NCBI GenBank assembly: GCA_025989215.1
Contig: JAPDNP010000003.1
Span: forward strand, 62,001 to 126,000
Reading direction: 5' to 3'
Source: Neisseriaceae bacterium JH1-16
GTDB lineage: Bacteria > Pseudomonadota > Gammaproteobacteria > Burkholderiales > Chromobacteriaceae
Length of the DNA stretch: 64,000 bases
Under the pieces are notes generated by a model, which was given only the letters and a program-made list of their open reading frames with translations, did not search any database and was not told the origin of the DNA. Position 1 is the first letter of the stretch; the number at the start of each line of letters is the position of its first letter. Made by a program: the position numbers and the translations under genes. Shown one piece after another: positions 56,617 through 59,547 of this stretch.

Positions 56617-56939
56617 ATCAAAGACATCCGAGCCGTTAGACGCACACAAGCTCGCCACTTTAACGTAAAGAAAGTCCTCGTCAATCGCCGTGCGGCGAAC
56701 GGTAGCATTGATTTCCCACGGTAGCATTTCCAGGCGCGCAACCATGAAAAAAGCCCGGTATAAACCGGGCTTTTTTCATGGCGTGGCAATGCTCAGACGT
56801 TAAACCGAAACATGCGCCAAGGAGCGTTGTTTCCACATGCAGTTGCAGATTGATCGGCCATTTCGTAGTCACTTCCATATACATTTTTCGCGGCGCTACC
56901 TTGGCTGGTGGCGCTCGAAATGACGGCAGCTTCGCACAA
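56617..56939. other. 323-bp gap between hydrolase and XRE gene
   Basis: No gene is seen. It holds a 10-11 bp direct repeat with a period of 19 bp (56699 and 56718) and the long hairpin at 56742-56781 described separately. Composition drops in GC near 56640-56700. Confidence 0.5.
56742..56781. terminator. 18-bp perfect hairpin, probable terminator of the XRE gene transcript
   Basis: CCATGAAAAAAGCCCGGT pairs with its exact complement across a 4-nt ATAA loop. A6 and T6 lie inside the stem. It is about 160 bp after the XRE stop. Confidence 0.7.
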
Positions 56940-57194
56940 TCAGGGTGCTCCGTCTGCAGGGGGCTCGAACAAGAAGAGCTCGCCCACCGGAACCTCCAGC
57001 GTCTCAGCGAGCTTGCAGATGTTGATCAATGCAATGTTGCGCTGCCCACGTTCGACGCCCCCCAGGTAGCTCCGGGCTATGCCACTTTCGAGGGCTAGCC
57101 TCTCCTGCGACCAGCCCTTCAGCTTCCGAACCTGAGCCAACCTGCGCCCGAAGAGGATGCGCGGGTCTGTCTGCATCGATTTCTTCTTGTCCAA
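56940..57194 (-). CDS. XRE-family helix-turn-helix regulator
   Basis: The 84-residue protein has one HTH domain (about 15-70: LAQVRKLKGWSQERLALESGIARSYLGGVERGQRN) of the Cro/C1 type and nothing else; it is like controller proteins of restriction-modification systems and of small phage/island operons. Upstream is a palindromic operator at 57238-57288, so self-control is likely. It sits at the edge of a degraded mobile segment. Confidence 0.85.
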   Translation of the reverse strand: MDKKKSMQTDPRILFGRRLAQVRKLKGWSQERLALESGIARSYLGGVERGQRNIALINICKLAETLEVPVGELFLFEPPADGAP

Positions 57195-57237
57195 AAGAAA
57201 AAGATGCTATGAATAGAGCCACTATCGGGCCACGCCC

Positions 57238-57288
57238 TATGAGTGACAAAGACAGGAAACACTGGCAAATTATGTCACTCATAGTGAC
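57238..57288. promoter_or_regulatory. Operator between divergent XRE and GX3-protein genes
   Basis: TATGAGTGAC (57238-57247) is an exact inverted copy of GTCACTCATA (57274-57283), and the latter is itself the left part of the palindrome GTCACTCATAGTGAC (57274-57288). Such repeated dyads suit a dimeric XRE regulator binding two sites. Confidence 0.6.
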
Positions 57289-57369: not shown

Positions 57370-57813
57370 ATGGTCGGTGAATACTTCAATGACCAGGCAG
57401 TCACCGAGCAGCATGGCTACAGCATGGGTCACTTGGCCGGAGAGCTCCAAGGCCGTGAGCGCGGTCGCCAGGAAGGCCATCACGCCGGTTACAACGCGAG
57501 ACACGCGGATGGCTATACCGAAGGCCACGAGGCTGGCCGCCTGGCGGGGTGGAACGCGGGTATTGCTCGCGGCAATGAGGAAATCCTCAAGCAGCTGGCA
57601 TTCACGCGAGAGCATGTTGCCGAGAATGAGGTGTTGAAGACGCTTGTGGTGAATGCCAATGCCCTGATCGAGCAACTCCGTGCCCAGCTGTCGGAAGTTG
57701 AGACGCAGAAGGAACGCATCGAGGCAGTCGGCCGTGAAGCTCTCCAGATGGCCTCGGCGGCCACCGTCGGAGCGCCACGCTTGACCGTCTTGTTGAGGAT
57801 GTCGAGCACGTGA
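57370..57813 (+). CDS. GX3-repeat (Yae1-like deca-GX3) protein, 3' end replaced
   Basis: Residues 16-68 carry glycine at every fourth position (13 of 14 places), a deca-GX3 pattern as in Yae1-type proteins, followed by a coiled-coil (about 75-120, with ALIEQLRAQLSEVETQKERIEAV). The last about 20 residues (from about SAATVGAPRL) are only the antisense of the integrase gene, so the true end is lost at a junction near 57755-57765. It is divergent from the XRE gene and has a good ribosome site (GAGGAGATAACG). Function unknown. Confidence 0.6.
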   Translation: MVGEYFNDQAVTEQHGYSMGHLAGELQGRERGRQEGHHAGYNARHADGYTEGHEAGRLAGWNAGIARGNEEILKQLAFTREHVAENEVLKTLVVNANALIEQLRAQLSEVETQKERIEAVGREALQMASAATVGAPRLTVLLRMSST

Positions 57814-58241
57814 GCCGGTGTGATCTGGCGTACTGGCAGCTTGCCGATCGACGGGAAGACCACGCGCTCTAACATGTCCAGCCGCCGCTTTTTCGTCATT
57901 TCTTCCCAGTCCTTCAGGGCCAGCCACTCCTTGGCGACGGCCTCGAACGTATTTGCTGCGTCCTGCTCGCGCTTGATGCGCTCGATCTGACGGTTCCGGA
58001 CGGGATTGATGCCCTCCTTGACCAGCTTGCGCGCGGCCTCGCACTTTTCCCTGGCCTCCCCGAGCGTCACGCTGGGGTAGTCGCCGAGTGCGAACCACGA
58101 AGCCTTGTCATTGAGCTTGAACCGATAGCGCCACGCCTTGATGCCGTTGGGTTTGATTTCCAGGTACAGACCCTTGTAGTCATTGAGGCGGTAGATGCCC
58201 TCTTTGGGCTTGGCAGCTCGGCACTGGGCATCTGTCAGCAT
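57765..58241 (-). pseudogene. Tyrosine-type phage integrase, N-terminal fragment
   Basis: The start is intact: an Arm DNA-binding domain (DUF4102 type: MLTDAQCRAAKPKEGIYRLND, WRYRFKLNDKASWFALGDYPSVTLGEAR) and the beginning of the SAM-like core-binding domain (EWLALKDWEEMTKKRRLDMLERVVFPSIGKLPVRQITPAHVLDIL region). The conserved frame ends at about APTVAAEA, where it runs into the GX3 gene on the other strand; the catalytic Arg-His-Arg-Tyr domain is missing. The open frame continues to 57513 as nonsense. It marks a lost or rearranged island next to ychF. Confidence 0.85.
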
Positions 58242-58370
58242 CGTGGGGCTCTCCAGGTGGTCATGCGCTCATCGTATACACCTTATGAGGTGCATGGCAA
58301 TAATCATATACACGCCCGTATTCACTTGCGCAGCGCAATCAAATGTTGTTGCATGCAATGAGCTGAAATG

Positions 58371-58396
58371 AAAAAGCCCCGTATTTACGGGGCTTT
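58371..58396 (-). terminator. Terminator of ychF
   Basis: AAAGCCCCGT/ACGGGGCTTT hairpin with T5 on the minus strand, 60 bp after ychF. Confidence 0.8.
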
Positions 58397-58455
58397 GTGT
58401 CAGTTTTGGCGACTCTCTGCAAGCAGATGCAATCGCCTGAAATGGCTAGTTTGAC

Positions 58456-59547
58456 TCAGACGTTGAACAGGAAGTTCATCACGTCACCGTCCTTGACCAC
58501 GTATTCCTTGCCTTCCGAACGCATCTTGCCGGCTTCCTTGGCCTTCGCTTCGCCGCCGCAGGCGATGAAGTCGTCGAACGCAATGGTCTGCGCGCGGATG
58601 AAGCCGCGCTCGAAATCGGTGTGGATCACACCGGCTGCCTGCGGGGCGGTATCGCCGACGTGGATGGTCCAGGCGCGTACTTCCTTCACACCGGCGGTGA
58701 AGTAGGTCTGCAGGCCCAGCAGCTTGTAGGCGGCACGGATCAGGCGGTTCAGGCCCGGCTCCTCCAGTCCCATCTCGGACAGGAACTCGGCCTTGTCGGC
58801 CTCGTCGAGCTCGACGATTTCCGATTCGATCGCCGCACACAGCGCCACTACCGGCGCGCCCTCTTTCGCCGCCAGCTCTTGCAGGCGGGTCAGGTGCGGG
58901 TTGTTCTCGAAACCGTCTTCGGCCACGTTGGCGACATACATCGCCGGCTTGATCGTCAGCAGGCAGAACGGCTTGAGCAGCGCCAGTTCTTCCGCATCGA
59001 GGGCCAGCGAACGCGCCGGGTGGCCCTGGTCGAGGTGAGCACGCACCTTTTCCAGAACCGCCACCGACTTGATGGCTTCCTTGTCACCCGAACGGGCCTT
59101 CTTGCCGTCGCGCAGGATGGCCTTTTCCACCGTGCCCAGGTCAGCCAGCGCCAGTTCGGTCACGATGGTTTCGATGTCGGAGATCGGATCGACCTTGCCG
59201 GCCACGTGCACCACATTGTCGTCGTCGAAGCAGCGCACCACGTTGACGATCGCGTCGGTCTCGCGGATGTTGGCCAGGAACTGGTTACCCAGCCCCTCCC
59301 CCTTCGACGCGCCCGCTACCAGGCCGGCGATATCGACGAACTCGACGATGGCCGGCTGAATCTTTTGCGGTTTGACGATCTCGCTCAGCTGCGCCATGCG
59401 CGGGTCCGGCACCTCGACGATGCCGACATTCGGCTCGATGGTGCAGAACGGGTAGTTGGCGGCTTCGATGCCGGCCTTGGTCAGGGCGTTGAACAGGGTC
59501 GACTTGCCGACGTTCGGCAGGCCGACGATGCCACACTGGAGACTCAT
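58456..59547 (-). CDS. ychF: Redox-regulated ATPase YchF (Obg family)
   Basis: YchF is an Obg-family protein that uses ATP and binds ribosomes. The 363-residue protein has [21 protein letters not shown], the [21 protein letters not shown] segment with G3 and the long helical domain, and the C-terminal TGS domain ending [13 protein letters not shown]. The integrase remnant lies just beyond its terminator. Confidence 0.96.

Follow-up and report, generated by a model that had tools for sequence, protein, structure and literature searches.

A probable internally deleted island remnant with both attachment sites at the 3' end of ychF in Neisseriaceae bacterium JH1-16

P4, after which a type of tyrosine integrase is named, integrates at a tRNA gene. 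Other elements have lost their integration genes and kept both attL and attR, and are known as cis-mobilizable elements (CIMEs), as set out in PMC5704250. A CIME derives from an ICE or IME whose transfer genes have gone as well, and can be mobilized in cis once it has undergone accretion with a functional element. In Streptococcus pneumoniae, prophages and satellite prophages integrate beside ychF, on its upstream side (PMC8637289 and PMC10383233). In the literature searched, whose coverage was partial, no account of islands at the ychF 3' end in proteobacteria was found.

A short element adjoining ychF lies in the 64-kb stretch of the Neisseriaceae bacterium JH1-16 genome analyzed here (the window). 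It is very probably an att-bounded, internally deleted, CIME-like remnant of an island at the ychF 3' end that carried a P4-type tyrosine integrase. The supporting set includes a repeated core, an empty site in genome G001, eight att-bounded relatives, the spacing of arm-type repeats, the break in the integrase gene, an XRE-type gene beside attR and a comparable remnant in genome G349. The features of the locus are as follows.

56742-56781, minus strand: original ychF terminator, displaced beyond attR (folding z -10.1; in G001 the matching sequence directly follows ychF).
56793-56804, minus strand: attR core TTTAACGTCTGA (core match and 15-bp overlap at the G001 empty site).
56865-56883, minus strand: attR arm segment TGTATATGGAAGTGACTAC with two arm-type repeats, one of them variant (same core-relative place in G019, G014, G292 and G215).
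56940-57194, minus strand: complete XRE-type regulator (HTH_3, E 1e-14).
57237-57284, no strand: probable XRE operator, a 12-bp perfect inverted repeat CTATGAGTGACA / TGTCACTCATAG (recurs upstream of XRE homologues).
57370-57749, plus strand: gene for a GX3-repeat protein, native part of about 126 residues, 3' end probably lost (homologue alignment; the frame runs to 57813).
57749/57750, no strand: deletion junction between the GX3 and integrase genes (end of DNA homology and alignment to intact integrases).
57750-58241, minus strand: integrase fragment, codons 1-164, comprising the arm domain and part of the core-binding domain (Pfam and alignment to intact relatives).
58274-58325, minus strand: three arm-type repeats GTGNNTAY at 58318-58325, 58306-58313 and 58274-58281 (spacing shared with relatives).
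58373-58396, minus strand: terminator-like hairpin contributed by the element, downstream of ychF (folding z -5.9).
58456-58467, minus strand: attL core TTCAACGTCTGA, overlapping the ychF stop codon (TTYAACGTCTRA match and G001 empty site).
58456-59547, minus strand: ychF, complete reading frame ending in the 12 bases of the attL core (agrees with relatives up to and including the stop codon).

The end of ychF (58455-58473) is repeated at 56792-56810, and TTYAACGTCTRA has only two matches in the 64 kb, namely the two att cores (none in 100 shuffles). Between them lies an insertion of 1,663 bp that contains the truncated integrase gene, the GX3 gene, the complete XRE regulator with its predicted operator, arm-type repeats and a terminator; its GC content is 57%, against 61.5% and 64% in the flanks. 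In G001, which belongs to the same genus, the site is empty: ychF is directly followed by sequence like that of the window beyond 56793, and the two matches to the window share a 15-bp overlap. The original prediction had put the attachment site probably downstream of ychF; this can be made more precise, since ychF itself provides the site with its 3' end, attL and attR both surviving. Because both remain, the loss was internal and not one-sided, and the prediction fails if it is read as a loss that reached one end of the island.

Similarity extends beyond the cores in alignments of nine regions for attL and ten for attR, one of the latter being the second att of G215. The GTGNNTAY repeats of the window lie 143, 155 and 187 bases from the attL core, a spacing that is equal or within one base in G014, G292, G215 and Aeromonas; departures from it are a single variant copy in G349, two of the three repeats in G019, only one in Salmonella and shifted positions in G264. 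On the other side, the attR arm repeats stand about 68 and 80 bases before the core, one copy reading ATGTATAT. All nine attL regions have a hairpin-like segment at the same place, of which only the window's was folded.

Integrase residues 1-164 were used as query against 399 genomes of the order, 12 of which, its own included, matched at E<=1e-45; a larger integrase sample gained no further genome. Att cores were looked for in eight of the other eleven (G014, G019, G292, G215, G349, G264, G177 and G274), G005 having been read only at a contig end and G276 and G086 lying outside this comparison. In all eight the integrase gene stands beside ychF with a core at both ends (across two contigs in G019), the core departing from the consensus by a single base in G177 and in the G274 attR. 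Core-to-core lengths are 39.7 kb in G292, 33.0 kb in G274, 32.4 kb in G014 and 13.5 kb in G264 and G177; short elements measure 1.6 kb in G349 and 2.1 kb in G215, and after the latter comes another att-bounded segment, 1.9 kb long. The comparison with relatives that had been proposed thus found full islands after ychF, of 13-40 kb, with the same-genus G001 site empty; together with the deletion derivative in G349, they bear out the central claim of a deletion within an island beside ychF. AlpA-type genes occur in the islands of G014, G292, G264, G274 and G019.

The tandem arrangement at ychF in G215 (L087 72-3998) places 2.1 kb with an intact integrase gene and an XRE-like gene before the 1.9 kb, which has no integrase gene. 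Separately, G059 has a ychF 3' end duplicated 0.9 kb apart (L096 6802 and 7689) with no integrase match; it may represent a different kind of remnant at ychF. Among 5,426 complete E. coli genomes, 628 carry the integrase type of the window, with at least 80% of the query covered in 626. The gene is beside ychF in both neighborhoods viewed, those of E. coli WEM25 (a short fragment) and one Salmonella record.

Within the element, the GX3 plus frame (57370-57813, 147 aa) and the integrase minus frame (58241-57513, 242 aa) overlap tail to tail at one junction, as originally described, and each does run into the antisense of the other, from about residue 127 of the GX3 frame and for the last 78 codons of the integrase frame. 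The DNA match of the integrase gene to intact genes ends at window position 57749 (88% identity to G014, 75% to G019). At the same point the protein reads GAPTVAAEA followed by IWRASRP, while GAPTVAAEA is followed by KRTMSG in G014, G019 and Aeromonas; the boundary recurs in G047 (LTVAAEA, then KRTMSG) and Salmonella (GAPTVAAEA, then RRTISS). One fused junction was therefore correctly proposed, but its position, 57749/57750, is a few bases earlier than the predicted 57755-57765. That both genes had lost their conserved ends is certain for the integrase; for GX3 it is probable but unproven, one of three aligned homologues being equally short. A repeat at 57733-57751 and 58242-58260 (84% identity), one copy of which, 57733-57751, ends close to the junction, was considered as the cause of the deletion and rejected, since recombination between the copies gives a different product; we read it as chance. 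The exact integrase-GX3 junction was absent from a search of viral contigs.

Over 164 residues the integrase fragment and the intact G014 integrase are 97% identical; intact relatives measure 394-424 aa. In the window frame, Pfam recognizes the arm domain and, of the 96 positions of the central domain, 1-68; the G014 protein has an unbroken central domain and also the catalytic domain PF00589. Alignment makes it certain that everything after codon 164 has been lost in the window, and as the catalytic domain is missing the fragment cannot recombine DNA by itself. Its branch carries six synonymous and one non-synonymous polarized codon changes and no decay in 164 codons; so few changes fit a recent break. 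The 157-position family PHROG 3423 matches residues 1-148, but is not established as a family of short integrases, the integrase of Yersinia phage YeP5 being full-length.

The suggested search for the missing catalytic domain in the same genome yielded three other integrases, at 30-42% identity, and one decayed C-terminal relic on contig C17 (G000:C17:25544-25925; L133 9547-9925), the only integrase of the same subfamily there besides the fragment. The relic begins at about residue 272 of the ychF-type integrase, and its DNA is nearest to the G215 gene (87% vs 80% to G014), whereas that of the fragment is nearest to G014 (89% vs 84% to G215); although the two comparisons cover different stretches of the gene and call for caution, these contrary affinities suggest another copy and not the lost half.

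Homologues of the GX3 protein from Aeromonas (198 aa) and P. syringae (263 aa) continue well past the break, and a relative from Thauera is likewise long-tailed; the third aligned homologue, from Deefgea (132 aa), whose gene is also divergent from an HTH gene, stops at about the same point. The 3' end of GX3 is thus probably truncated, a claim with few homologues behind it. Relatives were found in four plasmid records, at one locus in viral contigs and, with an alignment query, at four loci in genome contigs, where none appeared before that query was used; phages gave none. An Alcaligenaceae match sits, as judged by eye, among genes resembling flagellar ones; kinship with FliH was rejected, profile matches lying far below the cut-off and probably reflecting a shared glycine pattern. 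This GX3 gene occurs in no other genome among the 61 of the family and 399 of the order, and hence no relative was found with both frames intact in the same arrangement, which would have spoken against a deletion.

The XRE regulator starts at a TTG at 57194 or, more likely, at an ATG at 57176, and has homologues at 80% (G031) and 62-67% (G019) identity. The operator half-sites recur with no or one mismatch upstream of both, the G019 copies being in direct orientation; the 12-mers are absent from the scanned stretches of Deefgea (L050), G008 (L047) and G014 (L055, L056). The divergent neighbors of XRE differ among the three loci with operator-like 12-mers (57237-57284 in the window, L041 7618-7664, L039 929-980), being GX3 in the window and other genes in G031 and G019. 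The regulator and these 12-mers may possibly form a cassette with exchangeable client genes, and XRE and its predicted operator may still be working, with XRE repressing the GX3 promoter. An XRE-like gene adjoins attR in G014, G292 and G215 and is close to it in G019, in the same direction; as there is no XRE match at E<=1e-6 in G349, G264, G177 and G274, it is not a constant part of these islands.

G349 has its own 1.6-kb remnant at ychF (L088 3427-5034), in which the integrase gene is also broken after codon 164. Up to that codon, and again near attR, this element matches the island of G177 (13.5 kb, with type I restriction genes); on the other side of its junction is a fragment of an AAA ATPase gene with relatives in the G274, G177, G292 and G014 islands. 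Since the first part of the ATPase fragment is missing in G177, that island would be a relative of the parent and not the exact parent. The G349 junction shows a possible 4-base microhomology, AGCC. Across the 12 matching genomes, nine have open integrase frames of 381-474 aa (G274 with its first 24 residues in another frame), two end after codon 164 (the window and G349) and one, G005, is cut by a contig end and has a stop. Other broken copies are interrupted elsewhere: in G724 homology disappears near residue 201-211, in Aeromonas caviae the break is near residue 210-218, and E. coli WEM25 has 36 codons left. By our own arithmetic, post hoc and for two cases, a uniformly placed second break would come within 2 bases of the first about 5 times in 1185; the two breaks do not establish a hot spot. 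It is a long shot that ychF islands repeatedly shrink to about 1.6 kb, keep all cis sites and have their integrase gene broken at a single favored nucleotide, which would yield a class of non-autonomous mini-islands moved in trans by intact ychF integrases in the manner of miniature transposons.

We favor a history in which an illegitimate deletion brought integrase codon 164 up against a GX3 gene toward the opposite end of the island and would have removed the catalytic domain together with the cargo between. By analogy with G349, the middle would have been lost in one or more deletions; AlpA and RepA genes lie between XRE and attR in G019 and are missing in the window, so more than one event is possible. 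The genomes searched yielded no full island with this GX3 gene, so the parent has not been seen and the element could be a mosaic, its integrase half and its XRE-GX3 half stemming from two ychF islands joined by recombination, or by tandem insertion then deletion. We regard such an origin as unlikely: no searched island holds integrase, GX3 and XRE together and the two tandem segments of G215 show that accretion at ychF occurs, but the attL and attR of the window are in register at one site, and G014, G292 and G215 each combine, in one element, an integrase gene beside attL with an XRE-like gene beside attR.

It is improbable that the shortened integrase has been retained to bind DNA and regulate the att region or its own promoter. 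The arm-binding domain is complete, its 164 codons are free of decay and the G349 remnant ends at the same codon; against this, the break falls inside the core-binding domain, off a domain border, there is no common C-terminus (78 antisense codons in the window vs 4 past the break in G349), and a recent deletion accounts for the absence of decay. Even less credence is due to an assembly artefact joining unrelated contigs: the junction is present in one assembly only, yet it is embedded about 120 kb deep in a contig of 486 kb, between att sites in the expected register and in a region with no second copy in the genome. Finally, a deletion that also took one island end and left only the integrase start at ychF, as the tail-to-tail junction viewed alone might suggest, is refuted by the second core, arm repeats and displaced ychF terminator at 56742-56883 together with the G001 empty site, and has virtually no probability.

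With the internally deleted remnant as the preferred reading, its excision would need a ychF-type integrase and probably also an excisionase in trans, the cis sites looking intact. With one site seen empty, filled by full islands and, twice independently, reduced to a minimal remnant, island decay becomes readable stepwise, and the layout of att core and arm repeats is now given for the ychF-targeting group of integrases. Such shrinkage is an ordinary fate of islands, and remnants with intact att sites can combine later with incoming elements.

Compared with the described systems, the element differs from the S. pneumoniae prophages, which lie upstream of ychF at another attB, in using the 3' end of the gene. 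Its kinship with P4 is apparent in a 39% identity between the P4 integrase and the window frame (residues 6-176 of the latter), in the arm-type DNA-binding domain of that frame and in the AlpA-type genes of related ychF islands; unlike P4, however, the ychF group targets a protein gene. As in a functional P4-type island, the insertion is att-bounded at one target gene, but the window copy has no catalytic domain and hence no complete recombinase. On inspection of its open frames, no xis or AlpA frame was noted in the 1.66-kb element, nor does it contain transfer genes, the related islands being typed by single genes only. It differs from CIMEs such as those related to ICESt1 of Streptococcus thermophilus in host, in target gene and in being only 1.66 kb long, and also in that no parental conjugation gene was seen, so that its parent was maybe a genomic island and not an ICE; what it shares with them is the loss of the integration genes between a retained attL and attR.
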